This document shows, in pieces, positions 12,490-58,014 of a stretch of DNA of 64,000 bases. This stretch comes from Strigamia acuminata (lineage: Eukaryota; Arthropoda; Chilopoda; Geophilomorpha; Linotaeniidae), in NCBI GenBank assembly GCA_949358305.1, contig OX442317.1:15256491-15320490 (forward strand), in the 5' to 3' direction. Every line of letters starts with the position of its first letter. Position 1 is the first letter of the stretch. Made by a program: the position numbers and the translations under genes. The notes beneath the pieces are model-generated. The model was not told where the DNA came from. It saw nothing but the letters and a program-made list of their open reading frames with translations, and did no database searches.

Positions 12490-15400
12490 GAGGTCGGCCA
12501 CAGAGAAATTGTTACCATCCGAGTAGAAGTAAGAAGAAAAAGAATAAAAGATGGAGAAAGGATAACATTATAATAATTGACGCAAAAATTTCGGAATCAT
12601 TGTTGGAAATCCCGGTAATTGTAAAAAATTTGGAAATAAAGGCAGTCATGGACACTGGAGCTAAGAAGAACATTTTGAGTGAAGAGTTAGCAGAAATATT
12701 ACAGTTGGATTATCAACCTACACCCAACGTTAGATTACGAGGAATAGGAACTGATTTAATAACTCCAGTGGGTAAAACAAATTTGAACATTCAAATAGGA
12801 CAATTGCAGTATTCAGTAGAAGTATTGATAGTTAGAAGTTTCAATTACCAACTTTTATTGGGAGATCCATTTATGACTTTTGCAAGGTGTGTTGTTGATT
12901 ATGATTTACAAAAAATCTTTGTGGGCCGAAAAAGTGGATTAGAAGCGGTTTTCCCGATGAATAAGACGTATGTGGACCAGAATTACGTAGCAAGAGTGAC
13001 AAAAGGCATAGCAATTCCACCAATGCATGAATGTGTAGTTCCAGTTAATTTAAGCACAGCGTTAACGAAAGAAATGTTTTTGGAACCTTTAGGAAATGTA
13101 ATTGATAGGTTTGGTATTATGTGTTGTAAGACGTTAACAAAGTTTGAGAACGGCAAAGGCGTAATACGAGTGGCGAATCCAACATCTAAGTCCATTTTTC
13201 TGCAAGAGAAGTCTGCGATTGGTAAGGCACATTATATTATTGATATTGGGCTGATAGATGAAAAACAAGCAAATTGTTTTGACTCTAACTCCCCGAGTTC
13301 TAAGGTTGTTGAGTTGTCGAATGAAAAACAAGCAAATTGCTTTGATTTTGACTCCGCAATAGCCGAAGGTAAGATGACCAAGAACCAACAGCAACAAATG
13401 AAGCAGTTACTTCAGAAAAATCAGGACAGATTTGCCATGACAGATAAAGATTTAGGAAGAGTAACCAACTTTAGTCATAAAATTGATACAGGTGATCATG
13501 AACCTATTCACTTGCAGCCGTACAGACGATCAATTGCAGAAAAAGAAGTAGAAGCTGAGGAAACCAGAAAATTGTTAGAACAAGGAGTCATAAGGGAATC
13601 GGAAAGTCCTTGGAGCGCGCCAGTTTTGCTCATCAAGAAAAGAGACGGTAAATGGAGGTTTTGTGTTGATTGGAGAAGGTTGAACGCAATTACAAAGAAA
13701 ATGGTGTACCCACTGCCAAGAATAGATGACACGTTAGATCAACTAGCAGGGGCCCAGTTTTTCTCGATGATGGATTTAATCCAAGGATACCATCAAGTTG
13801 AAATAAATGAACAAGACCGAGAGAAAACAGCGTTCACCACTTCAACCGGACACTATGAATTTAATGTCCTTGGAATGGGGTTATGTAACAGCCCAGCAGC
13901 GTTTCAAAAATTGATGAATAAAGTATTGGGCAACCTCCTTGGAAAGGTCTGTATAGCCTATCTTGACGACCTTATAATTTTTTCTAAAACATTTGAACAA
14001 CATTTACAAGATCTGGACTCAGTCTTTGAAAAACTGCGAATTGCGAATTTAAAGGTAAAGCTAAGTAAATGCACTTTCGGGACGGATACAATCCGATATC
14101 TCGGACACGTGATTGATTCAGAAGGCATTTCACCAGATCCACGAAATCTCGAGTCTGTAGCAAAGTTTCCAATTCCATTAAATGTGAAGCAGTTAAGGGG
14201 ATTTTTGGGTTTGTGCTCATATTATAGAAAATTCATTTTAGGATTTGCTGATATTTCCAAACCCTTGGTCAACCTTACGAAGAAAGACGAGAAATTCGAC
14301 TGGGGACCGCCTCATGAAGAAGCATTTAAACAACTAAGAACAGCTTTGGTAACAGTGCCAGTTTTGGCTCATCCTAATTTCGCACAGCCTTTCATCATAT
14401 CAACGGATGCAAGCGCTTACGGTTTGGGAGCCATTTTGAAGCAAAAGCTTAACAACCAAGAGCATGTGATTTGTTATGCTAGTAGGTTATTGAGCAATGC
14501 CGAACAGAACTATAACGCGACAGAAAGGGAATGTCTGGCCATATTGTTTGGCATACAGAAATTTCGCCCTTATTTGTATGGAAAGAAGTTTACCATCATC
14601 ACGGACCATTCAGCACTTCAATGGCTGAAAAGCGTCAAAAATCCAAATGGTAGGTTAGCACGATGGAGTCTGCAGTTGGTTGACTATGATTATGAAGTAC
14701 AGCATAAGTCAGGCAAGAAACATACAGATGCCGATGCGTTAAGTAGGATTCCTGAGGACATTAGTGAAGAAGAGGTAATTATTCCTTCATTATTGCTCGA
14801 AAATCTCGATTTACCTGCAGAGCAGCGTAAAGATCAGAAGATTATGGAACTCATCACATCACTGCAGACAATAGAGCAACTTCCGCGCAAAAGAAGACGT
14901 CCGCTACAGCAGTACGTACTTCAAGGCGATATTTTGTTTAAGAAGAAATTTAATTCCTTGAACACGGAAGAATTACTGTATATTCCACAGCATTTGAGAA
15001 AAGATGTTTTAGTAGAAATGCATGATGGTCTTACAGGCGCTCATTTAGGCCTGAGTAGAACTTGGAAGAAAATTAGAACACGTTTCTTCTGGCCAAGGAG
15101 TTATAGGGACGTAAGGAATTACGTACTCTCATGTCCGAAGTGTGCAAGTGCAAAAACCATGACAACACCGCCAAAAGGATTGATGCAGCCGTGGTCGACA
15201 GTGTCTCGACCATTCGAACGAGTAGCCATAGACACGTTAGGCAGTTTCCCAATATCTGACACAGGAAACAAGTACGTTTTCATTATTACGGATTATTTAT
15301 CACGCACTGCAATAGCTAGAGCAGCACCAGCGTGCACAGCTATTGAAGCAGCGAATGCCCTTGTTTATGAAGTCATGCTGAAAGAAGGAAGCCCACGAGA

Positions 15401-16037
15401 GATTCTGAGTGATAAGGGAACAGAATATAGAAATGAAATGATTAAGGAAATATCTGCATTGTTTAAGTCCCTTCACAAATCCACTTCCGGATACCATCCA
15501 AGAACAAACGGTCTTACGGAAAGATTTAATGCGACAATAGCTAAAATGTTGCAGAGTTATGTAAATAAAGATCATACTGATTGGGACGCATTTTTACCAT
15601 TTCTTCTATTCTCTTACAACACTGGAGTCCATGAAACAACAGGTTACACTCCGTATTATTTATTACGAGGTTATGAAGCAGATCTCAACGTGGATGTCAA
15701 CTTAAATCTTCCTCGTAAGGAATTCACTTTGCGTACTTCCAGATTTATCAGGGAGGCAAGGAGAATTGCCAATGAAAGAATACAAGAACAAGGTGTGAAA
15801 AGCAAGAAAAGGTTTGATTTGGACAGAGTACACGTGGAATTCGATCCAGGGGAGCTAGTTTATTTGAAAACACCAAATAGAAAGGTTGGTTTAAGCGAAA
15901 AGCTCTTGCCACAATTCTCTGGGCCATATGAGATCGTACGACGAACAGCGCCGAATGACTACGAAATTCGAAGTTCATCAGGCAAAAAGATGGACATTGT
16001 GAACATTGTGGGGGTTCACAATTTTTCCTCTTCCTAA
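12483..16037 (+). CDS. pol: Pol of Gypsy J (protease, RT, RNase H, integrase), C-terminus lost
   Basis: The frame is open from the gag end. First comes a protease with DTGA (near 12655), then RT with the CVDWRRLN and YLDDLIIF signatures (near 13660 and 13960). RNase H shows STDASAYGLG (near 14400) and TDHSALQWL. The integrase has a zinc-binding HHCC region (near 15050-15150) and a core with AIDTLG, SDKGTEY and NGLTERFN; the D-to-E spacing is 35 residues, the canonical value. After the C-terminal GPYEIV motif the protein stops shortly beyond VGVHN with FSSS, at the fusion to Gypsy I. Normal copies should continue slightly further. All catalytic residues I checked are present. Confidence 0.9.
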   Translation, partial: KLGGRPQRNCYHPSRSKKKKNKRWRKDNIIIIDAKISESLLEIPVIVKNLEIKAVMDTGAKKNILSEELAEILQLDYQPTPNVRLRGIGTDLITPVGKTNLNIQIGQLQYSVEVLIVRSFNYQLLLGDPFMTFARCVVDYDLQKIFVGRKSGLEAVFPMNKTYVDQNYVARVTKGIAIPPMHECVVPVNLSTALTKEMFLEPLGNVIDRFGIMCCKTLTKFENGKGVIRVANPTSKSIFLQEKSAIGKAHYIIDIGLIDEKQANCFDSNSPSSKVVELSNEKQANCFDFDSAIAEGKMTKNQQQQMKQLLQKNQDRFAMTDKDLGRVTNFSHKIDTGDHEPIHLQPYRRSIAEKEVEAEETRKLLEQGVIRESESPWSAPVLLIKKRDGKWRFCVDWRRLNAITKKMVYPLPRIDDTLDQLAGAQFFSMMDLIQGYHQVEINEQDREKTAFTTSTGHYEFNVLGMGLCNSPAAFQKLMNKVLGNLLGKVCIAYLDDLIIFSKTFEQHLQDLDSVFEKLRIANLKVKLSKCTFGTDTIRYLGHVIDSEGISPDPRNLESVAKFPIPLNVKQLRGFLGLCSYYRKFILGFADISKPLVNLTKKDEKFDWGPPHEEAFKQLRTALVTVPVLAHPNFAQPFIISTDASAYGLGAILKQKLNNQEHVICYASRLLSNAEQNYNATERECLAILFGIQKFRPYLYGKKFTIITDHSALQWLKSVKNPNGRLARWSLQLVDYDYEVQHKSGKKHTDADALSRIPEDISEEEVIIPSLLLENLDLPAEQRKDQKIMELITSLQTIEQLPRKRRRPLQQYVLQGDILFKKKFNSLNTEELLYIPQHLRKDVLVEMHDGLTGAHLGLSRTWKKIRTRFFWPRSYRDVRNYVLSCPKCASAKTMTTPPKGLMQPWSTVSRPFERVAIDTLGSFPISDTGNKYVFIITDYLSRTAIARAAPACTAIEAANALVYEVMLKEGSPREILSDKGTEYRNEMIKEISALFKSLHKSTSGYHPRTNGLTERFNATIAKMLQSYVNKDHTDWDAFLPFLLFSYNTGVHETTGYTPYYLLRGYEADLNVDVNLNLPRKEFTLRTSRFIREARRIANERIQEQGVKSKKRFDLDRVHVEFDPGELVYLKTPNRKVGLSEKLLPQFSGPYEIVRRTAPNDYEIRSSSGKKMDIVNIVGVHNFSSS
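16019..16034. other. Fusion point of two convergent Gypsy elements
   Basis: Left of this point the plus strand codes for J's integrase C-terminus. Right of it the minus strand codes for I's pol C-terminus (HDYNLRKRK). Neither a stop and 3' untranslated region nor an LTR of either element lies between them. I's minus frame therefore reads on into antisense J sequence to 15748. Confidence 0.75.
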
Positions 16038-19970: not shown

Positions 19971-19975
19971 AAAAC

Positions 19976-20508
19976 TGTTGGTTTTCAGAAACCCAAATGA
20001 TTTATATCGATGTGATATAGAATCACATTTTGATTGTTTAGTTTAATTATCACAATGTATTATCTTATATATCTGTTTACATTTGATTTTATGTTTGCTT
20101 TATACGTTTAAGCATGAAGTACCATGCATTTGTTAGCATTAGTTTGTGTTTTCCTATTTTGTAATGCATAATACCGACACTAGGTGTCGTTGTTTACTGT
20201 TCTCTTGTTTTTCAACATGGCGGCACACAGTGCTTTTCTGCTTTGCCTTTTCTCAACTCCAGAATGGAGCCAATTTGTAAGTTGTTTGTTTTCAATTAAA
20301 TCTTTAGTTGTTTTAGTTGTTAATATTTATCATTAGAACACTTTTTGTGTTTAGTTTAAGCGCATATAAGCGGCCATAAGCCGCGCGCTCTTGTCTCGGC
20401 AATTAACGTCGTCATTACGTCCGTGTCGGCGACACGGTGCCTTTTCAAATTCGCTTCCACACTCGGCTACGCCGAATTTGCGCCGCTTGCCTCTGCTGCT
20501 AATGTTCA
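19976..20508 (+). repeat. 5' LTR of Copia H
   Basis: 533 bp from TGTTGG to GTTCA. It contains AACATGGCGGC (20214-20224), an exact YY1/Pho-type motif, and caatttGTAAGTtg, a possible splice donor. Confidence 0.95.
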
Positions 20509-20510
20509 AT

Positions 20511-20526
20511 TGGTAGCAGAGGATGG
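20511..20526 (+). other. Primer-binding site of Copia H (initiator tRNA-Met)
   Basis: TGGTAGCAGAGGATGG is a perfect complement of the 3' end of animal initiator tRNA-Met, two bases after the LTR. Confidence 0.9.
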
Positions 20527-21299
20527 TTGGCTAATGTGTATAACATTTTTCCCTTTTATCGCCGAAAGATTTCGCGAATTTCGCGAATTTTCGCGGCGAT
20601 TTGTGTTTTTTTTGCAGATTTCATCGGTTCTCGGGCCTATTTTCGTATCGCCGACGTGCTACCGACGTTTGGATACGACCAGTGTTGTCACACACACGTT
20701 CCTACGTTAATTTCGTCAAGAATTGCGCGGTCTCGCGAATTCTTAGGCGAATTTCGTTTATTTGCAGTTTTTTTCGTCGATTTCGAATCGGCGACGTATC
20801 CACGACGTTCGCAGGCAACCAGTGTTGTCCGCCACACGTTTCTATCGTTAATTTCGTCCAAAATCTCGCGGTCTCGCGGTTTTTGCGACGAATTTTTGTT
20901 TATTTTCAGTTTTTCGACGGATTTTTGTCTCGACGACGTTTATACGACGATTTTCGACGGAAACGAGACGTTTCTCGCTGTATACACCCCGGAGTGTATA
21001 CAGTATCGCCGAACTTACGACGATTTATTGATTTCGACGATTTTCAACACATTTTTGTGAAGAGCCTCATTTAATGAGAAGAATTTGGATTTTCGAATCC
21101 AAATTGCGCTTTTTCTCCGGTTTTTTCGAGAAAAACCGCGCCGTGCCTTCATTTGCACGAGGTCGCAACCGCGGCAGATTCAACTATTTCTCCTTCTTGT
21201 CGCAATACACTTTGTTAGATTTTAGTGGGTATTTTGGTTGGTTCCCTATTAGAATCGCAATAGCCCTTCGGACAAGTCTGTCCAAGCTATTGTTGTATT

Positions 21300-21568: not shown

Positions 21569-24500
21569 ATGTCGAAATACGCGGAACCAACAATTGGAAA
21601 ATGCCCGATGTTGGGCATAAACAATTACGAATCATGGCGCCGTGCGATGTGCATGCTTCTAAAGTCCGAAGGACTTTGGAGGCATGTAACGGAGGAAAAA
21701 GAAGCCGAATATTTATTGACTTTAACCCCGAAAGAGACAGAAAAGTATATGATGAAGAAGGATAAGGCGTTAGGACACATATATTGCCACGTGAGCGAGG
21801 CAAAACGCTCGACACTGGACAACGCTAATACTCCGAAACAGGCGTGGGATATTCTTACCAAAATCTTCGCCCCTAGTTCCCTGGCTCGTCAAGCAGCCAT
21901 GAGATGGCAATTTTTAAGTCTTCACCTCGAGCAAAACGAGGACATGGTCGATTTCGTCAGTCGCGTCGATCTCCATGTACGCCAACTCCGGGATATGAAG
22001 GAAGAAGTATCGGATAAGCATCACGCTTACCAATACCTAAATCGCCTGCCCTCGGAATACGCTCAGGCCACATTTGCCATCTATAACTGGCCTGAAGCGA
22101 ACTTCACACCGACAAAAGTGTCTGAACAGTTAATTTCCGAATACCTTCGCCTTAAATCAGTGGGTTTACACAACGTCTCATCGTCAGCTCATGCGTCTGC
22201 TCAGAATCAGCAGCAATCTCGTCAGGGTTCACGTCCGCGCCGTCCATTATCGCAAGTGAAATGCTTTAATTGTCAAGAAATGGGCCACTATGCTAACAAG
22301 TGCCCATATCCGAAGCGTGACGACCGGAATCAACAACCAACGGCAACATTCCAACGTTCTCGCAGCAAAAGCAAGAAGCGTGGCAAGAACTCGGCCTCCA
22401 AACCCGAGGACAATCGCCCAAGAGGAAGTTCCCATCCGGTTCGCAACGCGGTATTTTTCGTCAATGCCCCACAGATTGTTGAACGTCCTGTCGCCCACCT
22501 GATGCAATCCAACGAATGGATAGTTGATTGCGGCGCCACAGACCACGTTTCCCACGTGAGATCGTGGTTTTCCGAATTCATGAACATTGTCCCGTTTGAT
22601 ATCGAATTGGGACAGGGAAAATCACAGGTGACCGGCAGAGGAACCGTTGCGTTACAAACACGCGTGGACAATTCTCATTGCAACGTGACGTTGACAAATG
22701 TGCTTTATGCGCCAAATTTCGAGGCGAATTTAATCTCAGTGTCAAAAATTGACAAGACCCGTCTCCATATTCACATCTTTAACGGAGAAATCAACGTCTA
22801 CCAAACGGACATTACTAATGCTATTTTACGAGCGAAGGAAAAAGGAGGACTCTACTATGTGGATGGGTTGTGTACTAATCCGACCGTTGCTGTTACGACT
22901 TCACCGATTGTCCAACAATCACCCGTACAGACATTTGTCACGACGGAAGAGGACTTCGTGAAGATTCCGAAGCCGAAGAAACAGAAGTCACAGCAACAGT
23001 ACATCTCGGATTTTAGGATTCAAATGCCGCCATTACCTGCGACGGAGGCCCCGACGTCAATCTCGGTTGCCACCAATCCTGTTCCACAATCCTTGCCCGT
23101 CCTCATCAACCCTCCAACCCCATCCTATGCTGATGTTATCCAACACATCCCAAGCAGTCCTTTGCCTATTCCATCTCCTCTACCCGTCCAATCCGCTGGC
23201 AATTCTTCTCAATCACAAAAGAAGATTGTTGCCAATCCTGTCCAAGTACCAAAGAAAACCCTTGCCCATCCCGCTTCTGTCAAGGATGCAACCGGGTTGT
23301 GGCATAGTCGCCTTGGACATCTGCATACCAACGCGATGCGGTTATTAGCCAATAATGACCATGTTTATGGACTTGAACCTGCGGAAGTGTCGCAAGAATT
23401 GGCATGCAATGACTGTCGGATTGCAAAATCTACCAGGGCTTCTCATAAGCCGGATCCTCATCCTTGTACCTCCAAGCCTCTTGACCTCTTACACATGGAC
23501 GTTTGGGGGCCATATCCGGTTCCTTCATTTGGTGGTGCTCGCTTCGTTCTCACCGTCATTGACGATGCAACCAGATATACCTGGATCACCCCTTTAGCAC
23601 AAAAATCTCAAGTCTTCTCGTGCTTCAAAGAAATCGTCGCCAGAGTTGAGCGTGTCGCCAACACACGTGTCAAAGCCATACGTACTGATAGGGGCGGCGA
23701 ATTCTTATCGAATGAATTCCAACAATATTTGAAGGACAAAGGGATCCAGGGACAGCGAACCAATCCTTCGAGCCCCCAAATGAACGGCACAGCTGAGAGA
23801 ATCAACCGGACAATGGCTGACCACATTAGAGCTGTACAAGAGGAAACAAAGCTTCCAGCCGCTTTATGGGCAGAGATTGCTGTCAACTTTGCATACATTA
23901 AGAACCGGAGTCCACATTCTCGTTTGAACAATCAAGTGCCATATATTCTTTGGCGACAGCGTGCTCTTTCTTTGCGTCATCTGCGAAAGATTGGATCCAA
24001 GTGCTGGGTGCACTTCACTGCACCAGGACGCAGGAAACTCGACCCGCGAGCCTGGGAGGGATTTCTCGTGGGTTATGCCACTGGCACACGTGGTTACCGT
24101 GTATGGAATCCTCTGGACAATAGCGTAACGGAATCAACTCATGTACGCATTGACGAACATCAGTCTTATAAAAAGACATTGAGGAACCAAAACGGTAACC
24201 GCTATCCAACTTTCGAGGAACCCGACGTTGGTCAACAACATCACGTATCTTTTGATGACAGCGTTCAATATCTGGACTGGCCCAAACAAGATTCTGATGA
24301 AGACTCATCTAATGCATCGGATGATAGCAATGACGACCCTGATGATGACGATGACGATGGAAATGTTTCTAGGTCAATATCCATTCCTCTGGTACATCTT
24401 TCGCCACTTGCGACGCCTGAACGTCAATTACTTGAAGCGTGCGCACAGGCATTACCAGGTTCGGCAAATATGCGACGCTCGGCATCGTATCCCATCCTTT

Positions 24501-26578
24501 ACCAGGAGGGACAAGACACCGATGAAGATATTGATCAAATCGATGATGATGCTATTCGGTCGTACGCAGCTGAATCACAACAGTTTGACTCTCCGAATAT
24601 TTCATCGGCTCCTGCCAGCTCCCTTGATTTTTCCCCACCCGGCTCACCAAACCGCTTCATTACATTGCGTAGAAGACAAGGTGGGAACATCCTTCAGCAC
24701 ACCACGCCCATATTTGATCAAGGAGCAATGTCACCATTGCCAACTGGTTCGACGCTGGTTCCAGCTCAAGGAAACAGAACCTCTTTCATGTGGCGTTATG
24801 TGGGTGGAGATACAGTCTTTAGTAGGTGGGTTCGTGAAGAACACTTGAGGAAGGATCAACGGCCAGGCTCGATTGATGCGGATGTCTATTACTTTCCGCA
24901 ACCTGGCATGAGACTTCGATCCCGTAACGAAATTCAGGCATACTGCACCGTGAACGATCTTCCTTACGATTCTGAATTATTCTTCTTTGGCATTATGGAA
25001 CATTCATTACCGTTGATCCCTCCGGCCCGACATGCAGCTCACCTTTGCCGTACAGAGCCGTCATCATACTCTGAAATATCCACGTTCCCAGATGCCCCAA
25101 AATGGCGTGAAGCCGTTGATTATGAGTTGAACATTTTTAAAGAACGTCAAGTCTATCAAGAAGTTCCGAAGCCGCCCAATACTACAGTCTTAGGCTGTAA
25201 ATGGATTTTTAAGTTAAAAACGGATTTGAGCGGCAAAATATCGTGTTATCGTGCTCGACTTGTCGCACAAGGCTTCCGCCAAACCATCGGGGTAGATTAC
25301 GACGAGGTCTTCAGCCCAGTCGTGAATTTCGTGTTAATCCGACTTTTCTTCTGTCTTCTGGTCGTCCTCAGGGGATGGAAGGATGCTCACCTCGACGTCA
25401 AAAGTGCATACCTGTATGGGGACCTGAAGCACAAGGTATACATGCGCATCCCCGCAGGTGCCACCTGTTCGAATCCCGGGAACGTCTGGTTGCTTGTTAG
25501 ATCCCTCTACGGTCTCCACCAATCAGGGAGGGAGTGGTACGAAAAGTTGGATGGGACGCTTCGAGCCCTCGGTTTCCGGAAGATGCCCGCGTGCAATTGT
25601 GTGTATATTTACGGCAATTGCGCCATCATGCTTATCTACGTGGATGACATCGTTCTATTCTACGCTTCCGACACCGTATTGACTCGAATTATCCGACTTA
25701 TCTCGTCCAAATTCGACATTGTTAACCTTGGTCCCATCACGAAATTATTGGGAGTTGAATTTATTCGCGACGCCGGACGGACTTTCATCACACAACGAGG
25801 CTACATCACAAAGCTCGTTAAGAAGTTCGAAATCTCCATCAACCGTCTTGTAAAAGTTCCCGTCACACCTGGGACGACACTCGTGAAGGGGTCAACCGAT
25901 AATCTACCGGATTTTCCCTACCGATCCCTAATCGGTTCTCTTTTATTTCTCGCGTCGAGAACACGCCCCGATATCTTATTTTCGGTTATTTCACTGAGCC
26001 AATTCAACACGTGTTACAACAAAACACACATCCGAGCCCTCTCGCAAGTTCTCCAATACGTGGCTAACACCGTGGATTACCGAATCGAACTTTCAAACTG
26101 CAATTCTAGCCAGTTGTGGGCCTTCACGGATGCGTCGTGGGCAAGTGAACCAACAACGTCTCTAAGTTTCGGTGGTTATGTCAACTTTATCGGAAATGTG
26201 CCTATTGGCTGGTCGTGCCGAAAACAGTCAACGGTCGCATGTTCTACTATGGAGGCGGAATTTCTCTCTCTAGTTGAATGTGTAAAAGAATCCTTCTGGC
26301 TCGACCACATTTACTCCGAATTCCCAGTTCTCAATCGACAATCCCGACCAATGATCTATTCCGACGCTCTCTCGGCCATCCAGTTCACTGAGAATGACGT
26401 GGAAAATTCAAAGACCAAACATATCCGCGTCAAATATCATTGGCTGCGAGAGTGGTATAAGGCGGGATGTTTCGACCTTCATAAAGTATCCGGTGAACAG
26501 AATATTGCAGACATTTTTACCAAATGGCTCAGTTCTGAGCGTTTGAAGTCGTTGATCTCCAAGATCTTCCGGCACTGA
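21569..26578 (+). CDS. gag-pol: Copia H Gag-Pol polyprotein with an MBD-like domain
   Basis: 1669 residues from ATG 21569 (MSKYAEPTIG). The frame is open further upstream, but this start matches F. Gag comes first, with a CX2CX4HX4C knuckle at 232-245. The protease motif is DCGA at 320 (Cys in place of the usual Ser/Thr). The integrase HHCC region starts near H579, and its catalytic residues are D644, D707 and E743 (D-35-E). An acidic linker follows. Residues about 1085-1140 then match the methyl-CpG-binding domain: W1087, R1094, D1105-V-Y1107, and RLRSR with R1117. RT has YVDD (D1359, D1360) and RNase H has TDASW (D1521). The C-terminus ends IADIFTKWLSS. Everything looks functional. The MBD-like part is not standard in Copia and could direct the element to methylated DNA. 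Confidence 0.92.
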   Translation: MSKYAEPTIGKCPMLGINNYESWRRAMCMLLKSEGLWRHVTEEKEAEYLLTLTPKETEKYMMKKDKALGHIYCHVSEAKRSTLDNANTPKQAWDILTKIFAPSSLARQAAMRWQFLSLHLEQNEDMVDFVSRVDLHVRQLRDMKEEVSDKHHAYQYLNRLPSEYAQATFAIYNWPEANFTPTKVSEQLISEYLRLKSVGLHNVSSSAHASAQNQQQSRQGSRPRRPLSQVKCFNCQEMGHYANKCPYPKRDDRNQQPTATFQRSRSKSKKRGKNSASKPEDNRPRGSSHPVRNAVFFVNAPQIVERPVAHLMQSNEWIVDCGATDHVSHVRSWFSEFMNIVPFDIELGQGKSQVTGRGTVALQTRVDNSHCNVTLTNVLYAPNFEANLISVSKIDKTRLHIHIFNGEINVYQTDITNAILRAKEKGGLYYVDGLCTNPTVAVTTSPIVQQSPVQTFVTTEEDFVKIPKPKKQKSQQQYISDFRIQMPPLPATEAPTSISVATNPVPQSLPVLINPPTPSYADVIQHIPSSPLPIPSPLPVQSAGNSSQSQKKIVANPVQVPKKTLAHPASVKDATGLWHSRLGHLHTNAMRLLANNDHVYGLEPAEVSQELACNDCRIAKSTRASHKPDPHPCTSKPLDLLHMDVWGPYPVPSFGGARFVLTVIDDATRYTWITPLAQKSQVFSCFKEIVARVERVANTRVKAIRTDRGGEFLSNEFQQYLKDKGIQGQRTNPSSPQMNGTAERINRTMADHIRAVQEETKLPAALWAEIAVNFAYIKNRSPHSRLNNQVPYILWRQRALSLRHLRKIGSKCWVHFTAPGRRKLDPRAWEGFLVGYATGTRGYRVWNPLDNSVTESTHVRIDEHQSYKKTLRNQNGNRYPTFEEPDVGQQHHVSFDDSVQYLDWPKQDSDEDSSNASDDSNDDPDDDDDDGNVSRSISIPLVHLSPLATPERQLLEACAQALPGSANMRRSASYPILYQEGQDTDEDIDQIDDDAIRSYAAESQQFDSPNISSAPASSLDFSPPGSPNRFITLRRRQGGNILQHTTPIFDQGAMSPLPTGSTLVPAQGNRTSFMWRYVGGDTVFSRWVREEHLRKDQRPGSIDADVYYFPQPGMRLRSRNEIQAYCTVNDLPYDSELFFFGIMEHSLPLIPPARHAAHLCRTEPSSYSEISTFPDAPKWREAVDYELNIFKERQVYQEVPKPPNTTVLGCKWIFKLKTDLSGKISCYRARLVAQGFRQTIGVDYDEVFSPVVNFVLIRLFFCLLVVLRGWKDAHLDVKSAYLYGDLKHKVYMRIPAGATCSNPGNVWLLVRSLYGLHQSGREWYEKLDGTLRALGFRKMPACNCVYIYGNCAIMLIYVDDIVLFYASDTVLTRIIRLISSKFDIVNLGPITKLLGVEFIRDAGRTFITQRGYITKLVKKFEISINRLVKVPVTPGTTLVKGSTDNLPDFPYRSLIGSLLFLASRTRPDILFSVISLSQFNTCYNKTHIRALSQVLQYVANTVDYRIELSNCNSSQLWAFTDASWASEPTTSLSFGGYVNFIGNVPIGWSCRKQSTVACSTMEAEFLSLVECVKESFWLDHIYSEFPVLNRQSRPMIYSDALSAIQFTENDVENSKTKHIRVKYHWLREWYKAGCFDLHKVSGEQNIADIFTKWLSSERLKSLISKIFRH

Positions 26579-26797: not shown

Positions 26798-27330
26798 TGT
26801 TGGTTTTCAGAAACCCAAATGATTTATATCGATGTGATATAGAATCACATTTTGATTGTTTAGTTTAATTATCACAATGTATTATCTTATATATCTGTTT
26901 ACATTTGATTTTATGTTTGCTTTATACGTTTAAGCATGAAGTATCATGCATTTGTTAGCATTAGTTTGTGTTTTCCTATTTTGTAATGCATAATACCGAC
27001 ACTAGGTGTCGTTGTTTACTGTTCTCTTGTTTTTCAACATGGCGGCACACAGTGCTTTTCTGCTTTGCCTTTTCTCAACTCCAGAATGGAGCCAATTTGT
27101 AAGTTGTTTGTTTTCAATTAAATCTTTAGTTGTTTTAGTTGTTAATATTTATCATTAGAACACTTTTTGTGTTTAGTTTAAGCGCATATAAGCGGCCATA
27201 AGCCGCGCGCTCTTGTCTCGGCAATTAACGTCGTCATTACGTCCGTGTCGGCGACACGGTGCCTTTTCAAATTCGCTTCCACACTCGGCTACGCCGAATT
27301 TGCGCCGCTTGCCTCTGCTGCTAATGTTCA
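26798..27330 (+). repeat. 3' LTR of Copia H
   Basis: 533 bp, matching 19976-20508 with one difference seen. It is preceded by the purine tract cgaaagggggaat and followed by the duplicated target AAAAC. Confidence 0.95.
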
Positions 27331-27577
27331 AAAACAGGTTGTCGTCGAAAATTAGAAACGGGTTAGCAGTTTCTTCGGCCGTAAATGGTGTGTTTGTAGG
27401 CACTTTAAACTGATATTTCAAGTTTCTTTTGCGTGTCCTTCGGTTAGGACGGGCGCGACCAATTTGTTTATCTTGAATTACTAAATTGTCTAGAGTTTCC
27501 GACAACTCCTTGTCTAATTCTTCTGACAATATCTTATCAGATTCGTTCGTCGGGGGTGCAATGACCCCCTCCACTAG
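27331..27577 (-). CDS. pol: Pol of Gypsy I, N-terminal piece separated by Copia H
   Basis: It is the -1 frame entered at the slippery site 27577-27583. It codes for a Glu/Asp/Lys-rich linker (VEGVIAPPTNESDK onward) that ends at FDDNLF where Copia H begins. The rest of pol resumes in the same frame at 19970. The frame also runs by chance into H's LTR, to 27173. No catalytic motif lies in this piece. Confidence 0.75.
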
Positions 27578-27583: not shown

Positions 27584-28089
27584 GGAACTTGTGGGGTTTC
27601 TATACCTGGCGCCGTAGTGGCGTTCTTTGGGTCCAAGAATTTACTAAATAAATCCAAAACTGTCTTGCTTATCGTAGTTTGCATACTATTTTGCATATCA
27701 GTTTTTAGATCTTCCATCTTTTGATCAATAGCTTTGGCAGTTACCCAATTCTGACGCTGTCGCTTGAAATCATTTGGCTGCTGATTAGGGCTATTGTTAC
27801 TGGAATTATTATTTCCGGAGAAATTACCATTGAATTTTCGCTTCTGTAACAATGGACATTCTCTTTTGAAATGGCCTGGTTGCTTGCAGTGAAAACATTT
27901 CCCCGTCTGATTTTCAGACATGGCACATAATAAACTATCCATAGATACGTTATCGTTGACAATTTCGTTGATGTCAACTGGTTCGTCTTGTTGCTCTATT
28001 TCCATCATTTGAGTGGAACGAGCAGAAGTTGTCCTGACCTTTAAAAAAGGTTCTATTCGGTCCTGAATTTCCTTGTCTTTGAAATCCAC
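27574..28089 (-). CDS. gag: Gag of Gypsy I, C-terminal part with zinc knuckle
   Basis: 171 codons in a frame different from the N-terminal gag part. It contains CFHCKQPGHFKREC (CX2CX4HX4C, near 27870-27905), an RNA-binding knuckle, then an Asn-rich stretch and a helical tail ending VPKN at the frameshift site. The MDFKDKE start is only the first ATG after a stop; the real protein should run in from the left part of Gag. Upstream of the knuckle there is too little sequence for a whole capsid, so a deletion is likely. Confidence 0.7.
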   Translation of the reverse strand: MDFKDKEIQDRIEPFLKVRTTSARSTQMMEIEQQDEPVDINEIVNDNVSMDSLLCAMSENQTGKCFHCKQPGHFKRECPLLQKRKFNGNFSGNNNSSNNSPNQQPNDFKRQRQNWVTAKAIDQKMEDLKTDMQNSMQTTISKTVLDLFSKFLDPKNATTAPGIETPQVPKN

Positions 28090-29344
28090 TGTTTTGCTGA
28101 GTTTGAGCGAAACTTTTCATTCTACTATCCAATTGAGTTTGGAATTGGGTAGCCATATTACTTTGTAATCTCGTTATATGATCGAGAAAGTATTGTGAAT
28201 CCTGTTGAGGGTTACTCGTTCCTGAAGAACTATTACCCGACAATCTTATATTATCAGTAGACGAATGTGAGGCACCAGTACTTGAAGGATCTCGAGATTC
28301 ACTTCCATTATTAACATGAGTGGATGAAGCGGGATTAAGGGGAAAAATCTCTTTAAGAGTTTTCTCTCTTTCCCTCTGTTTCCCTTCCGCCCTTAATAGT
28401 CGTTGGCTTTCCTCATAGAGTTCATTTTTTTGTCGCTGAAGATCTTCCCTTTGTTGCTGAATATCATCCATGATCCTTTTCAGCCTTTGCTCCTCTAAAC
28501 GATCTTCTTCGTCTTTTGCCGCTTTCTTAAGGGCTTGATCTTTCCGGATATTTTCATCATTTAGTTGTGTTTGACGAATTTCTTCGTCACGAGTTGCAGT
28601 AGCTTCTTGTTGAAGTCTATCGCTTTCTTCCTTATCTAATCTCATTTGCTCCTGTTGAGCTTGAATGGAGATGGGTGAAGGTAACGGAGTTTTCCTTCGG
28701 TGAATAACGGACTTATTTCCGGGTCCCTTCGGCGTTGTCTTGGCAAAATGTCTGTTTCCATTCTCGATATAAATATGGGGATTGGAAGTCTCTTTTGCGT
28801 TTTCCGGTCGGAAAGATGAAAAGTTAGATCCGCCTGTCTTCGCTACGTTGGGTGAATTGTTGCAACTGGCGTTGCGGGAAGGAGGAGTTTTACCTCCTAT
28901 GCTTGATTGATTAAGCGATTCTTTACTCGAGGTTCTCAAGAATCCTCGAATATCTTGATGTTTAGAAGGCGTGGATTTAATCCTTGCTTGGTCTCCCAAC
29001 TTACGTTGAAGTGATTTAGATCGTGACTTCGATCCTTCGGGTGGATCTTTTGGCGAAGAACCTTGACTTGTATTAAGGTTTATTAACTCTTCTTCCGGAA
29101 GTTCTTTACGAATTTCGGGAGTCGGGTTAATACGCATATTTCGTTGCGACCGTTTCATTAGAAAATCGGCGGCTTCGATCACGTTGTTGAACTGAGTTTT
29201 ATCTAATTCATGATGGTTACAAAATTGCGTAAGTTCATCGGGAATCATGTCCGTCTGATCGCACAATTTGACATAACTTGAATCCAAGCTTTTATTTCCC
29301 TCTTCGGCGGCTTTCTCTTCGATAGGAAGATTCGGTTGATCCAT
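27974..29344 (-). CDS. gag: Gag of Gypsy I, N-terminal part
   Basis: 456 codons from ATG 29344 (MDQPNLPIEE). It is rich in Ser, Pro, Lys and Gln, with a long charged helix (EEQRLKRIMDDIQQQREDLQ and onward) that should form a coiled coil, then a Ser/Asn/Gln-rich part. No capsid domain is visible before the frame leaves the gag track (RATRRTS, stop at 27974). The last codons overlap the zinc-knuckle frame. The element probably lost its capsid-coding segment between about 28050 and 28150, with a frame change. Confidence 0.65.
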   Translation of the reverse strand: MDQPNLPIEEKAAEEGNKSLDSSYVKLCDQTDMIPDELTQFCNHHELDKTQFNNVIEAADFLMKRSQRNMRINPTPEIRKELPEEELINLNTSQGSSPKDPPEGSKSRSKSLQRKLGDQARIKSTPSKHQDIRGFLRTSSKESLNQSSIGGKTPPSRNASCNNSPNVAKTGGSNFSSFRPENAKETSNPHIYIENGNRHFAKTTPKGPGNKSVIHRRKTPLPSPISIQAQQEQMRLDKEESDRLQQEATATRDEEIRQTQLNDENIRKDQALKKAAKDEEDRLEEQRLKRIMDDIQQQREDLQRQKNELYEESQRLLRAEGKQREREKTLKEIFPLNPASSTHVNNGSESRDPSSTGASHSSTDNIRLSGNSSSGTSNPQQDSQYFLDHITRLQSNMATQFQTQLDSRMKSFAQTQQNSGFQRQGNSGPNRTFFKGQDNFCSFHSNDGNRATRRTS

Positions 29345-30190
29345 TATTTAAATGTAATCGCGTAGTAATTTAATACTTTTCGTGGGTTACGGTGTAAAGA
29401 ACTTCGGATCGTGACTGGAATCGGAACGGCGTGATCAGGATGGTTACTGGAACACGTCTGCTGGTCTGGTCTGGAAGCGAATGATCAATGTCCGATCTGG
29501 GTCCGCTTTAGTAGTAGGGGGCTGGGGATCCCTAGATCTCCTAGCTCCTGATTGGTGGAAATACCGTTGGTCAATTGTATAACGTACGTTATACAGAATC
29601 AACAGCTTTCTACTAAGTCCGCACTTTCCGAATCTCAATCTTTTTTGCCGATAGAATAATTTCCTTCGGGAAATTGTATTTCGCAAGATTTGCCAGTTTC
29701 GTAATTGTAAAATAAAAATAGCTTTAATTTTTACTTCAACTTTTCGATACATTTGTTTTCAAATTACTATGCAATTCTTCAGATGCTGGATTTTACTTCG
29801 AAATTCCAATTTTATAAACAATAATTTCACACATTATAAAATAACATGTTCGAACTTGTTTCTTAAATTCGTTCAAAATAAAACAAACATCAAATATATC
29901 TATTTTTTTTGCATTTCATTCGAAACTTTTTGATTTTTAACTTAATAAAAGTACTTTCCGACTTTCTACGATCTCAAATCGAATTAACTTATAACCTATC
30001 TCAATGATCGTGTGATAGATTAAATAATCGGTTGCAATTCCTTCGTAACGAATTGATTTTTCATTTTCTTTGAGAAAATAACTTATAACTTTCAAACTAT
30101 AACTTTTGTAAAACTTATCCCAAGTTTTTTAGTCTTTATTATTTATCTCAATGTTCACTGTTGCAATTCATTTTGAATTAATTGCAACCT
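29345..30190 (-). other. Leader of Gypsy I
   Basis: About 0.85 kb, AT-rich, between primer site and gag ATG. No frame or motif of note is seen. Short self-complementary stretches and T-runs occur. Confidence 0.5.
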
Positions 30191-33869: not shown

Positions 33870-34096
33870 TGTTATAATCGTGTGTGTCACCAGGCCGAAT
33901 ATGTATAAATCCCGAATGAGGGTCTCCGACCGCTAGGGGGAGTTGGTTGTATTTTCGGGTCACGGAGGATGACGCGACGTAAACGGGACTTCCGGTCACT
34001 TGTTCTTCTGGAGACGCGTGCTCTGTATATGCCGTGCGAATAAAACCCCTCATATCTTTTCATCCGAAGTTATCCAGTCTTTTCCCAAATACAACA
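33870..34096 (+). repeat. 5' LTR of Copia K
   Basis: 227 bp from TGTTATAATCG to ACAACA. It has a TATAAAT box at 33904 and AATAAA at 34039. It appears identical to 38387-38613. Confidence 0.95.
33904..33910 (+). promoter_or_regulatory. TATA box in the K LTR
   Basis: TATAAAT, 34 bases into the LTR and about 130 before AATAAA (34039-34044), the usual U3-R order. Confidence 0.5.
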
Positions 34097-34099
34097 AAG

Positions 34100-34110
34100 G
34101 GTTATGGGCC
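34100..34110 (+). other. Primer-binding site of Copia K (internal initiator tRNA-Met)
   Basis: GGTTATGGGCC, three bases after the LTR, matches the anticodon-region site used by Drosophila copia, where a half initiator tRNA-Met is the primer. Confidence 0.8.
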
Positions 34111-34249
34111 ACAGCATCTAACACTGCGTGAGTTTTTACATCTCGTATCGATTTTCCGGGCGTTTTGACGAAGGAGTGACCACTGACCGGACCACGAGAC
34201 GTTAGGCCTAATTTCCAACGCGTGGTAGATCGCCAATCAACCTTCAAAA

Positions 34250-37200
34250 ATGGCGGACAGAGATGCGATGAGGATCGAAAAGCTGGAGGATGAAAACTAC
34301 GCCACGTGGGCGTTCAAAATGCGAGTATTCCTGAAGAAGTCGGAATGGTGGACGGTCATCGTTGACGAAGCACCAGTGAACGGAGCAGCGGCGGCGAGGA
34401 ACGCGTGGCGTGGCAAGGACGAAAAAGCCATGAACGCAATCGTCCAGGCCCTGTCGCCAGCACAGACAGTGTACGTGATAAACAAAGACACGGCACGCGA
34501 ATGCTGGGAGAAATTGGAGGAAATCCACCGAGGGCGAGCGCGCCAAAGACAGACTATTTTGCGCCGAGAGCTGACCAAAACGAGGTGGGAAAAAGCTGAG
34601 ACGGCCACGAAGTTCCTGCAACGTGTGGAGTCGACGGTGAACCAGTTACGAGCTGTTGGCGGCGAAATTTCGGAGCAAGAGGTGGGAACTTTAATAATAC
34701 AAAACCTGCCAAAACCATACCACAGCATCCAGAGAGCGTTTGACATGTGCGACGAAGATGAAGTGACGATGGTCAAGCTGCGGCACATGATCATACAGGA
34801 GGAATCGCGACAAACTGGAGACGATGAAGTGGTCGAGAAACTGCATAAAGTGAACCTGTCCAGCCGCACGAAGAACAACTATCGGGGCGGCGAACGGAAC
34901 GGTGACCACGACGGAAAACGAGACCTGAAAAACGTAAGATGTTTCAATTGCCAGAAATTCGGGCACATGGCCAGAAATTGTCGCAGCCAGAAGGAGAGCG
35001 AGGGACGACGCGATAACAATTCCAAGCAGTCGAGAGGAAATGCCAAGAAGGAACAGCAGCCAGACGCCACCGCCAGGGCTGTGAAAGACAGACCAGAGTT
35101 TGCATTTCAGGTCAGAATCGACCAAACGGAAGGACGGCAGTGGAACCTCGACTCCGGAGCGACGAGGCACATGACGGCGAACAGGGACTTTCTCGAATCG
35201 TTCGTGGCAGATGACGGAAGTCGAAAGGTGACGCTGGCAGATGGGCGCCAAATCCCAATCATGGGCTGCGGAAACGTGAAATTCATTACGAACGACGCTG
35301 ACTTGATCGCGAAGGAGGTATTATACATTCCTGATTTAAATGACAATTTGATTTCGGTGCCAAAACTCGACGACGCGGGTTTACTCGTTGCTTTCGGAAG
35401 CGGGAAGTGTACGATATCGAGCGGGGACCGAGTGATAATGACTGCTACAAAGATCGGGGACGTGTATAGACTGAACGTGGAGACCGTGGTGGCCGCGCAG
35501 GCGAACACGTGCCAACAATCGACCGAGATCGATGTGTGGCACAACCGAATGTGCCACTTGAACACGGGAACACTGGCGAAAATGCACGAAACGGGTGCAG
35601 TTTACGGTTTGGGGCCAATACAGAAGGACGGGCGGGCATGCGACGAGTGTGCAGCCGGGAAGATGGCCAGAAAACCATTCAAAACGATCGTGAGCGACCA
35701 ATCGACCAAAATATTGGAACTCGTGCACATGGATCTGTGCGGGCCGCTGACGGAGACGATTGGCGGCAGCCGATATTTGTTTTTGCTAATAGACGACTTC
35801 AGTCGCAAAATGTTTGTCTATTTTATTAGGTCGAAGTCGGACGTTTTCGAGAACTTTAAGGAGTTTGTGGCGGCTGTGGAACGCGAAACCGACACGAAAC
35901 TTAAACGTATCCGATCCGACAACGGAGGCGAGTTCGTGAACCACGAAATGGGCGAGTTCATGAAGTCGAACGGCATCCACCACGAGCTTACGGTGCCATT
36001 CTCACCTGCCCAAAACGGCATCGCTGAACGCGGCAACAGAACGCTGATGGAGGCAGCACGCACGATGCTGACGGCGGCGGCTTTGCCTTCGAAATTCTGG
36101 GCGGAGGCAGTCGCGACGGCCGCACACGTGCGCAACAGATGCTCGACAAGAGGAAACGGGGACAGGATTCCACAAGAACTTTGGAGCGGACGGAAGCAGC
36201 AAGTTGGCTATTTTCGAACATTTGGCTGTGCTGCGCAGATGTGGATCCATAATTCCAAACGAAAGAAATTGGACGCGAAGTCGAAACCTGTCATTTTTAT
36301 GGGTTACTGCGTCAACAGAAAGGGCTACCGAGTCTACGACCCGAAAACTGAGAAGCTAGAGCCGACACGCGACTTGAAATTCAACGAGGCGAGATGGGGC
36401 GGAGAAATGCTGACTTCGCCTCAGGGTTCGAATTTCGTGTCGCCGTACGACGCCGAACAAGAGACCGGGGAGCAGACAACAGACAATCCAGAGCCCAACG
36501 AAACGGACAACGGTGCCACCGAAGACGAGGAGTCCACCACTGGAAACGGAGACGGAGACGACGAAGAAGCTAGCGAAAACACGACAACACGCAAATCAAA
36601 GCGCATCAAGAGGAAGCCAGACCGACTGGTGGTGCAGCCAAGAGGCGCCACTTACTGCAAGAGCGTGAAGCACGTCGAGCCAAACACCGTGGTCCAAGCA
36701 CAGGACTCTCCGGAACACAAGAAGTGGGAAAGCGCGATCCAGGAGGAACTGAAATCTCACGAGGAATTCAAGACGTGGAGACTGGTGAAAAGAGCCGTTG
36801 CAACAAATGTGCTGAGGTCAAGATGGGTTTTTAAAATCAAAAAGAACCAGCAGGGCGAGATCGAGCGTTACAAAGCCAGATTGGTGGCCGTCGGATGCGG
36901 ACAACGGCCGGGACTGGATTACGAGGACACATACTCACCTGTAATGCGACTTGCGAGCCTGCGACTACTTCTAGCCATTGCTGTCCAACAAAATTGGCGA
37001 GTACGACAATACGACGTGAAAACAGCGTACCTGCACGGGAAACTGCTTGAGAAGGTGTACATGGAGCAGCCACCCGGGAACGAGGAACGAGACCGAGAAG
37101 AGTGGGTGTGCGAGCTTCTAAAAGCCATCTACGGACTCAAACAGGCCGGACGCACATGGTACCTGACACTCGACAAAATACTCAGAAAAAATGGATTTCG

Positions 37201-38215
37201 GCGACTATACGCGGATGAAGGCGTGTACGTGCTCAACAATCAAAGCGGGACAACAATATTGGGGATTTTCGTCGACGACATGCTGAACGTGACGTCAAAT
37301 ATCGGGATCGAAGATTGGACGGCGGACTTGCTGAGAAAATCGGTCGAAATCAAGGATTTAGGCACACCAACGAGAATTTTGGGGCTTGACGTGGAATGCG
37401 ACATCGAAAATGGATCGATCACCGTGTCGCAAGAAGCCTATATCGAGGAGGTGTTGGAAAGTTTCCAGATGGGGCCATGCAAACCAGTGTCGACGCCGAT
37501 GGTCAAACACGACCAACCGAAGCCCGAAGACGACGTAAATCCAGACGAGGTGCCGTACCAGAGCCTGATGGGGTCGCTAATGTACCTCGTGCAGGGAACG
37601 AGACCGGACATCGCTTACGCAACTCACTACCTGTGCCGATACAATCACAGCCACGGATTGTCCCACTGGAAGATGGGAAAGAGGATTTTGCGTTACCTGA
37701 AGGGGACGAAGGGGAAGAAGTTGCGATTCGTACGAAACGAGGAACAGATGACGGGATACGTGGACGCGAGCTGGAATTGCAACACCGAGGATGCAAAATC
37801 GACAACCGGATTTATTTTTCTACTTGCAGGGGCCGGCGTAGTATGGAAGTCATCGAAGCAAACGTGTGTCGGGATGTCGAGCTGCGAATCCGAATTCATC
37901 GCCATTAGCGAGGCGGTAAAAGAAGGACTTTGGCTCAAGAAATTTCTGGAAGAGCTGGGGCTGAACGAATTGATGGGGGACGCTGCGAGGCTGTACACCG
38001 ACAGCGAGTCGGCCGAGATGTTGGCACGAGGACTGGCGCAGCATCAGCGGTCGAAACACATTAATTTGCGCTATTGTTTTATAAAGGACGAGGTCGAGAA
38101 CGGAGAAGTGGAGTTGCTGCACGCGGGAACCGACAAGATGGTCGCGGATATGCTGACGAAGGCGGTGACTTTGCAGAAGCAGTGCTGGTGTTCAAAGATG
38201 TGTGGACTGGATTAA
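34250..38215 (+). CDS. gag-pol: Copia K Gag-Pol polyprotein
   Basis: 1321 residues from ATG 34250 (MADRDAMRIEKLEDENYATW). A UBN2-type Gag leads to a CX2CX4HX4C knuckle at C231. The protease has DSGA at D301. The integrase follows with an HHCC region near 430-470, then D495, D557 and E593 (35 residues between the last two). An acidic Thr/Asp/Glu-rich linker and a basic KSKRIKRK patch, possibly a nuclear localisation signal, lie before RT. RT shows ARLVAVGCGQ and FVDDML, and RNase H shows GYVDASW and TDSESAEML. The end is VADMLTKAV. There are no stops or lost catalytic residues, and with identical LTRs it should be a functional element. Confidence 0.95.
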   Translation: MADRDAMRIEKLEDENYATWAFKMRVFLKKSEWWTVIVDEAPVNGAAAARNAWRGKDEKAMNAIVQALSPAQTVYVINKDTARECWEKLEEIHRGRARQRQTILRRELTKTRWEKAETATKFLQRVESTVNQLRAVGGEISEQEVGTLIIQNLPKPYHSIQRAFDMCDEDEVTMVKLRHMIIQEESRQTGDDEVVEKLHKVNLSSRTKNNYRGGERNGDHDGKRDLKNVRCFNCQKFGHMARNCRSQKESEGRRDNNSKQSRGNAKKEQQPDATARAVKDRPEFAFQVRIDQTEGRQWNLDSGATRHMTANRDFLESFVADDGSRKVTLADGRQIPIMGCGNVKFITNDADLIAKEVLYIPDLNDNLISVPKLDDAGLLVAFGSGKCTISSGDRVIMTATKIGDVYRLNVETVVAAQANTCQQSTEIDVWHNRMCHLNTGTLAKMHETGAVYGLGPIQKDGRACDECAAGKMARKPFKTIVSDQSTKILELVHMDLCGPLTETIGGSRYLFLLIDDFSRKMFVYFIRSKSDVFENFKEFVAAVERETDTKLKRIRSDNGGEFVNHEMGEFMKSNGIHHELTVPFSPAQNGIAERGNRTLMEAARTMLTAAALPSKFWAEAVATAAHVRNRCSTRGNGDRIPQELWSGRKQQVGYFRTFGCAAQMWIHNSKRKKLDAKSKPVIFMGYCVNRKGYRVYDPKTEKLEPTRDLKFNEARWGGEMLTSPQGSNFVSPYDAEQETGEQTTDNPEPNETDNGATEDEESTTGNGDGDDEEASENTTTRKSKRIKRKPDRLVVQPRGATYCKSVKHVEPNTVVQAQDSPEHKKWESAIQEELKSHEEFKTWRLVKRAVATNVLRSRWVFKIKKNQQGEIERYKARLVAVGCGQRPGLDYEDTYSPVMRLASLRLLLAIAVQQNWRVRQYDVKTAYLHGKLLEKVYMEQPPGNEERDREEWVCELLKAIYGLKQAGRTWYLTLDKILRKNGFRRLYADEGVYVLNNQSGTTILGIFVDDMLNVTSNIGIEDWTADLLRKSVEIKDLGTPTRILGLDVECDIENGSITVSQEAYIEEVLESFQMGPCKPVSTPMVKHDQPKPEDDVNPDEVPYQSLMGSLMYLVQGTRPDIAYATHYLCRYNHSHGLSHWKMGKRILRYLKGTKGKKLRFVRNEEQMTGYVDASWNCNTEDAKSTTGFIFLLAGAGVVWKSSKQTCVGMSSCESEFIAISEAVKEGLWLKKFLEELGLNELMGDAARLYTDSESAEMLARGLAQHQRSKHINLRYCFIKDEVENGEVELLHAGTDKMVADMLTKAVTLQKQCWCSKMCGLD

Positions 38216-38386
38216 TATTTTTCGTATTTCATATGTCTTGCAGCAATGTTATATTCCTTGATCTTTTATTATTCGATTGTATTAGTGTATTTCTGTTATT
38301 ACTTGCCCATTTTTAGTTTTTAGTAATGTCATTCATTGATTTTGTATTTGTTTGTTTTTACACATTGACCAGGTGAAGAAGGTGTA

Positions 38387-38613
38387 TGTTATAATCGTGT
38401 GTGTCACCAGGCCGAATATGTATAAATCCCGAATGAGGGTCTCCGACCGCTAGGGGGAGTTGGTTGTATTTTCGGGTCACGGAGGATGACGCGACGTAAA
38501 CGGGACTTCCGGTCACTTGTTCTTCTGGAGACGCGTGCTCTGTATATGCCGTGCGAATAAAACCCCTCATATCTTTTCATCCGAAGTTATCCAGTCTTTT
38601 CCCAAATACAACA
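38387..38613 (+). repeat. 3' LTR of Copia K
   Basis: 227 bp, same as 33870-34096, followed by the TAAAG duplication. Confidence 0.95.
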
Positions 38614-43913: not shown

Positions 43914-44220
43914 TGTTGGCTTTTTGTTCCCCGAGATTACTGATTTAATGTTTATTCTCGATGTTTACATTAATGTTTGATATTTATCTGTCTATTACTT
44001 TGTAGACATCGTTTTTGATTGGATCAAATGAGATCCCGTACTTGTGCTTTTGTTTTGTATAGATTTCGTTTATCGGGTTTTAGTTCTGCCCGATTATGTA
44101 TCTCATTTTATCATTGCCTTTGTTATTACTTGCGTTTTCCTGTTTTTCAATGATGAGTGTGCTTAATAAAGCAGCTATGGATTTCTACACTTTTGCCTCT
44201 TTATTTATGGACAATCTACA
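43914..44220 (+). repeat. 5' LTR of Copia E
   Basis: 307 bp, TGTTGG to TCTACA, with AATAAA near 44164. Identical by eye to 49974-50280 (constant offset 6060). Confidence 0.95.
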
Positions 44221-44236
44221 TGGTAGCAGAGGATTA
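44221..44236 (+). other. Primer-binding site of Copia E (initiator tRNA-Met)
   Basis: TGGTAGCAGAGGATTA begins directly after the LTR and matches the initiator tRNA-Met 3' end at 14 of 16 positions. Confidence 0.85.
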
Positions 44237-49805: not shown

Positions 49806-49973
49806 TTTCGATTATAGTTTTTCGGGTTCCCGCATTTGTGCATTTGTCAATTGGTTGATCCTGATTTTTATCACTGCTTGTTCTGTACCGCAACCAATTG
49901 ACTATCGATATTGTTTTTGGGGTTTTTTCTTTCAACTGAGATTTGTTTATTATCTCGGAGAATGGGGGGCTCT

Positions 49974-50280
49974 TGTTGGCTTTTTGTTCCCCGAGATTAC
50001 TGATTTAATGTTTATTCTCGATGTTTACATTAATGTTTGATATTTATCTGTCTATTACTTTGTAGACATCGTTTTTGATTGGATCAAATGAGATCCCGTA
50101 CTTGTGCTTTTGTTTTGTATAGATTTCGTTTATCGGGTTTTAGTTCTGCCCGATTATGTATCTCATTTTATCATTGCCTTTGTTATTACTTGCGTTTTCC
50201 TGTTTTTCAATGATGAGTGTGCTTAATAAAGCAGCTATGGATTTCTACACTTTTGCCTCTTTATTTATGGACAATCTACA
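49974..50280 (+). repeat. 3' LTR of Copia E
   Basis: 307 bp, same as 43914-44220, preceded by ggagaatggggggctct and followed by the CAAAC duplication. Confidence 0.95.
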
Positions 50281-52112: not shown

Positions 52113-52313
52113 ATTCCCCCCTTCGATGCCAAATAGTAAAAGCTAATCGAACATAAGTGGGGACATCTCAAAATGTAACTTTACATTATACAATAAAGGA
52201 AAATAAAAGGGCGAACCATCAAGCCGGGTACTGTTAATACAATCGCTACGGAAGCCCGAAAATTCCCACTGGAACTTGATGATCCTCGAAGTTGGGTAAA
52301 TAAATAAGGAATG

Positions 52314-58012: not shown

Positions 58013-58014
58013 CT

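Follow-up and report, generated by a model that had tools for sequence, protein, structure and literature searches.

Within the 64,000-nucleotide (64-kb) stretch of DNA analyzed here, hereafter "the window", a Copia element (Copia H) encodes a polyprotein with a methyl-CpG-binding domain (MBD) between the integrase SH3 domain and the reverse transcriptase (RT). The element is delimited on the forward strand by two 533-bp LTRs with TG...CA ends (5′ LTR, 19976–20508; 3′ LTR, 26798–27330), recognized by direct match to one another, and by the target-site duplication (TSD) AAAAC, which precedes the 5′ LTR (19971–19975) and recurs after the 3′ LTR (27331–27335). The repeat match itself (19976–20509 vs. 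26798–27331) includes one mismatch over the 534 bp compared, and its last base was placed outside the LTR because of the TG...CA ends and the TSD. The small number of differences between the LTRs suggests a recent insertion. A primer binding site, TGGTAGCAGAGGATGGTTG, was placed by position at 20511–20529 (+), and probably resembles the 3′ end of an animal initiator tRNA-Met. The polyprotein is a single uninterrupted frame of 1669 aa starting from the Met at 21569 (21569–26578, +; open reading frame and Pfam), in which Pfam identified gag (PF14223), CCHC, Pol_BBD, gag_pre-integrs, rve, SH3_retrovirus, and RVT_2 domains. Copia H thus displays the hallmarks of Ty1/Copia elements, i.e., gag, an integrase ahead of the RT, an LTR pair, and a 5-bp TSD. 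Downstream, a 457-aa frame on the opposite strand (27974–29347, −) includes a long charged stretch and has no Pfam match at E 0.1; it could represent the gag of a further LTR element.

A methyl-CpG-binding domain in the Copia H polyprotein

The MBD of Copia H spans residues 1087–1140 (24827–24988, +) and was delineated from Pfam, alignment, PDB profile, and motif data. Counting from Met 21569, all residues named in the original prediction were found at the numbers given there, namely W1087 (codon 24827), R1094 (24848), D1105 (24881), Y1107 (24887), and R1117 (24917). The spacings it had described, with the first Arg finger seven residues after the Trp and the second twelve after the Asp, were borne out as well, and a Ser directly follows R1117. 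The additional residue noted in the middle of the domain shows up when it is aligned with MBD2 and MBD4, and distinguishes the Copia H type from these animal MBDs. A motif summarizing this arrangement (W-x6-R-x8..13-D[VI]Y-[YFLV]-x8-RS) did not occur in any of 20000 shuffles of the Copia H polyprotein, and was also present in a second Copia of the window (51639–58488).

When compared to PF01429, for which the curated Pfam cut-off is 21 bits, Copia H remained under the cut-off whether searched as a whole protein (14.2 bits, E 0.035), as a 110-aa cut (18.0 bits, E 0.0022), or as a 68-aa cut (19.5 bits, E 0.00077). The profile score is significant for the family, whose homologues exceed 21 bits, but marginal for the Copia H copy itself (14.2–19.5 bits). 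AlphaFold2 models built from window sequences, with two sequences each, were unreliable (pLDDT of 39.9 and 48.0). Taking Pfam searches, the alignment of six lineages, and PDB profile comparisons together, the predicted MBD-like domain is genuine, and the Copia H segment is, judging from its sequence, a true MBD carried by a Copia lineage. Nor is this segment a universal part of Copia proteins: a Copia located at 33870–38613 (+; LTR match and Pfam), with a 1328-aa polyprotein (frame 34229–38215) and LTRs identical over 227 bp, provided an in-window control, in which the motif was absent and the MBD profile gave no match up to E 1.

Two further MBD-Copias were found in the window. The minus-strand element at 51639–58488 (LTR match and Pfam) has LTRs identical over 474 bp, a GAAAC TSD, and a polyprotein at 52314–57179, in which the MBD (residues 1036–1089; 53913–54074, −; Pfam, alignment, and motif) brings the whole protein to 21.9 bits against PF01429, above the cut-off of 21. 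A third element, at 43914–50280 (+; LTR match and Pfam), has LTRs identical over 307 bp and a CAAAC TSD, and includes the first part of the MBD only (residues 896–920 of the open reading frame at 45541–48399; 13.2 bits), the frame being broken after this partial MBD and before the RT (open reading frame at 48288–49805). The third MBD-Copia seems to lie in the interior of a larger LTR element (LTRs from 39391 and 51126). The 3′ LTR of this larger element is apparently interrupted by the minus-strand MBD-Copia and continues beyond 58488, so that two of the window's three MBD-Copias are apparently nested in another LTR element. The likeness of the three TSDs in the window (AAAAC, GAAAC, and CAAAC) could point to a common target-site preference, which was rejected based on the TSDs found elsewhere (GGATT, TTCCG, GGCGG, CACGG, and CTCAG; clearly legible in five of nine element pairs outside the window). 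Finally, the window includes a copy of a Gypsy family (12465–16037, +) with no match to an MBD or a chromodomain.

MBD-Copias in the genome and conservation of their MBDs

We searched the 237.5-Mb genome assembly (157 contigs) for additional MBD-Copias. With PF01429, 150 of 1092 first-look candidates were scored, and all 150 listed matches were above the cut-off. The open frames around them reached 1280 aa or more in 125 cases and 1500 aa or more in 119. The Copia H segment, used as a query, yielded 150 listed places (scored out of 1260 candidates) that were 71–100% identical to it, with frames of 1280 aa or longer at 93 of these places. The two lists did not overlap within 2 kb, for a total of 300 distinct places. 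The MBD-like motif was detected in all 68 loci fetched as L001–L068, among which eight places were fetched twice. Copia domains beside the MBD were checked by Pfam for the window copies and by eye for nine loci printed in full frame, eight of which showed a Copia integrase, SH3, or RT; locus L010 is a 113-aa fragment. One relative of Copia H (L079/L080, C1:26.28–26.29 Mb) is bordered on both sides by GC-rich repeats with CGTTAACGGGCC-like units. Searches of viral contigs, by single sequence or by alignment, returned no relatives.

Alignment of ten MBDs from six lineages revealed six invariant positions: W4, R6, R11 (Arg finger 1), D22, R34 (Arg finger 2), and S35. The two Arg fingers, the Asp, and the Ser, which lie at fixed spacing, have known roles in MBDs, and the Tyr beside the Asp is involved in methyl sensing. 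Element MBDs resemble animal MBD2/3 and MBD4/MeCP2 in carrying both Arg fingers, the Asp, the Ser, and, in most rows, an F-x-F end. Scanned singly, all ten matched the Pfam MBD at E up to 1, and a profile of these ten members retrieved MBD2 from the PDB at 7.8e-14, along with MBD4, MeCP2, and MBD1. Because some of these ten sequences came from the Pfam search, we built a second profile from seven Copia H-type sequences selected independently of that search, for which MBD2 again ranked first (E 0.0023) and the 16 matches up to E 1 were MBD chains. Scores against PF01429 reached 50.3 bits in another Copia lineage of the same genome. Copia H and the other loci retrieved of its type (38 loci at 30 places, counting Copia H) have preserved the methyl-sensing Tyr, whereas among the 30 loci retrieved with Pfam this position was occupied by Val in 17 and by Ile in 8 (25 in total).

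In all 12 pairs compared, the MBD had a pN/pS ratio below 1 (0.05–0.59), and in 10 of them the linker ahead of it had a higher ratio. These pairs are not independent, and synonymous sites are saturated in several. In a phylogenetic tree of MBDs, the host and human MBD2/3 were split from the rest (support 89), with human MBD4 placed among element MBDs; the two window MBDs grouped together (support 100), as did L016, of the Ile lineage, and L021, of the Val lineage (support 86). The deeper order of this tree is poorly supported, and is compatible with a single capture as well as with several. Among PDB entries, MBD2 was the nearest relative of the L011 and L021 MBDs, while the MBD of L009 (C13:319953–320147) scored 42.5 bits to MBD4 and 39.4 bits to MBD2, and the L009 lineage could, by sequence similarity, represent a separate MBD capture.

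Genomic distribution of MBD-Copias

To describe the distribution of these elements, we used score-ranked lists of MBD-Copias (the best 150 of 1092 and 150 of 1260 candidates), of the MBD-less Copia type (150 of 2569), and of the Gypsy family (131 of 3743). Places were labeled MBD-less by type, the window copy being the one scanned for an MBD, and the 150 MBD-less places listed included 104 with frames of 1280–1420 aa, 44 with shorter frames, and two with longer frames. Neighbor and distance tests covered contigs C1–C13, rows beyond C13 being dropped. After 100-kb thinning, the nearest neighbor of a Copia (MBD vs. MBD-less) bore the same label more often than in permuted data, both for frames of at least 1280 aa (0.645 vs. 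0.516, reached in 4 of 2000 permutations) and without a frame filter (0.595 vs. 0.512, 33 of 2000). This excess was larger without thinning (0 of 2000 permutations with and without the frame filter), and gone after 500-kb thinning, with 949 (1280-aa filter) and 1915 (no filter) of 2000 permutations reaching the observed value.

Similarly, 23–38% of MBD-Copias were located within 200 kb of other MBD-Copias and 21% within 200 kb of the Gypsy family, and 3–8% were near the MBD-less type, compared to 8–12% when random places were used as targets or starting points (subsamples of 60 targets, frames of at least 1200 aa; the random control relied on guessed sizes for four contigs). Conversely, 25–26% of the Gypsy family were found near MBD-Copias, while the MBD-less type was near them about as often as, or less often than, random places (8% and 2% vs. 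9% and 8%). Listed MBD-Copias are thus concentrated in blocks in which the listed MBD-less type is not, and these blocks are common to the Gypsy family. The blocks used for a Fisher test were picked after the lists had been viewed. Since this Gypsy family, whose window copy has no match to an MBD or a chromodomain, occupies the same blocks, accumulation there does not require an MBD, and we do not claim MBD-specific targeting from the clustering alone.

Host methylation machinery and CpG content

The genome includes 54 matches to Chitin_bind_4, a cuticle domain, many of them in tandem clusters, and we take this family to mark arthropods. A search for DNMT1-RFD gave eight matches, seven above the cut-off, at five places (C3:35.916 [L089], C1:11.843, C3:32.741, C3:35.877, and C1:30.366 Mb), which would correspond to several paralogues or fragments of DNMT1 in an arthropod genome. 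One host MBD2/3 gene was found at C5:5.733 Mb (L090, 5.7333), with an intron inside its MBD and a Phe at the Tyr position. The same substitution is present in mammalian MBD3, a weak methyl reader. These sequence matches point to an arthropod host that possesses DNMT1 domains and an MBD2/3 of its own. Element MBDs are 28–42% identical to that of the host gene and, unlike it, intronless.

The CpG observed/expected ratio was 1.07 for the window, 1.09–1.23 for its three MBD-Copias, and 1.30 for its MBD-less Copia. As CpG is undepleted in the MBD-Copias and even higher in the MBD-less Copia, these values provide no sign of germline methylation of the elements or of a CpG bias peculiar to MBD-Copias. 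Flanking sequences had a mean ratio of 1.21, with no matched background beside it, across seven insertions of the nine element pairs (one pair was dropped for lack of an LTR pair, and one for its location in satellite-like repeats).

Discussion

We consider it probable that an intronless true MBD has long resided in a diversified group of arthropod Copia elements, where it would tether integration to methylated or CpG-rich chromatin. Steering integration is, we infer, the likeliest role of this domain, and targeting of insertions by the MBD is plausible. Produced in pol beside the integrase, the MBD would remain with the integrase or the preintegration complex, and could tether it to chromatin that is methylated or rich in CpG and dense in transposons. 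New copies would then settle in blocks where harm to the host is small, much as proposed for the chromodomains of some Gypsy elements. In the lineages with a Val or Ile, this tethering would perhaps be independent of methylation. In favor of this reading are the Pfam and PDB profile matches, the invariant residues, the low pN/pS, the Copia domains seen next to the MBD, the arthropod-like host with DNMT1 domains and an MBD2/3, the excess of same-label neighbors after 100-kb thinning, and the apparent nesting of two MBD-Copias in another LTR element. Counting against it are the sub-threshold score of Copia H alone, the unreliable models, the Gypsy family in the same blocks, the loss of the neighbor excess at 500 kb, and the undepleted CpG.

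An inter-domain linker resembling an MBD by chance, which the sub-threshold score of Copia H taken alone and the unreliable predicted models might suggest, is exceedingly improbable: the motif is absent from all shuffles, related Copias carry segments at this position with scores of up to 50.3 bits, MBDs top the PDB lists of both profiles, and pN/pS is lower in the MBD than in the linker in most pairs. A real MBD could instead act on the DNA of the element itself or on host silencing, for instance by shielding methylated copies or displacing the host MBD2/3. Accumulation in the shared blocks does not need an MBD, as illustrated by a Gypsy family without a recognized MBD or chromodomain, and a CpG observed/expected ratio above 1 within the elements offers many possible MBD sites, both in line with such a role; yet the place of the MBD in pol beside the integrase and the analogy to chromodomain Gypsy elements favor integration, and the listed MBD-less Copias are not concentrated in blocks, so that we regard this alternative as unlikely.

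The two remaining possibilities concern what the MBD recognizes. The best Pfam-scoring lineages may have retained the MBD fold and CpG or DNA binding while methyl-selectivity was lost or relaxed, as would be consistent with the Val or Ile predominating at the Tyr position in these loci, the Phe at this position of the host MBD2/3 (as in mammalian MBD3), and the undepleted CpG. This is doubtful, if slightly less so than a role on element DNA or host silencing, as none of the ten aligned rows has lost either Arg finger, the Asp, or the Ser, the fetched loci of the Copia H type (Copia H included) have preserved the Tyr, and DNMT1 domains are present in the host. A more specific scenario, in which MBD-Copias radiated into at least six lineages and those with Val or Ile, which fill most of the best Pfam matches fetched and retain both Arg fingers, now use the MBD as a methylation-independent CpG or heterochromatin tether, would suit a host with DNMT1, elements that are not CpG-depleted, and an MBD2/3 bearing a Phe, but also appears improbable overall. 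Tethering of integration to methylated or CpG-rich chromatin remains our preferred reading.

A retrotransposon family described in 2019 reportedly comprises Copia elements in a centipede and spiders, whose MBD is said to bind CpG-dense methylated DNA and whose insertions are said to be biased to methylated regions. By this description, Copia H would be an element of the same published kind. The original prediction knew of no described Copia lineage with an MBD, a view that is not supported: according to the title of de Mendoza, Pflueger, and Lister (2019, Genome Res 29:1277; PMC6673714), a family of arthropod retrotransposons has captured a functional MBD, and this family is reportedly of the Copia type. 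Both cases share an arthropod host, a Copia polyprotein containing an MBD, and preserved readout residues. Set beside this family, the present genome seems to add the number of lineages (six aligned MBD lineages in a single genome), the substitution of the Tyr by Val or Ile in two of these, the absence of CpG depletion, and blocks common to a Gypsy family.

The chromodomain of Gypsy elements sits at the integrase end. MBD-Copias are similar to chromodomain Gypsy elements as LTR retrotransposons with a chromatin reader in their polyprotein, but differ in the position of this reader, between integrase and RT, and in its target, which would be DNA methylation rather than histone methylation. Chromodomains are a known accessory domain of LTR elements (PMC6338049), and retrotransposons with captured DNA methyltransferases have also been described (PMC5890265). 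The latter similarly captured methylation machinery, albeit a writer, whereas MBD-Copias would carry a reader.

MBD-Copias may offer a natural test bed for asking if a retrotransposon can be guided in its integration by a methylation reader that it has captured. A single genome provides many long-frame MBD-Copias, several lineages, and variants at the methyl-sensing residue, and the MBD-less Copia type and the Gypsy family found alongside them can serve as controls.
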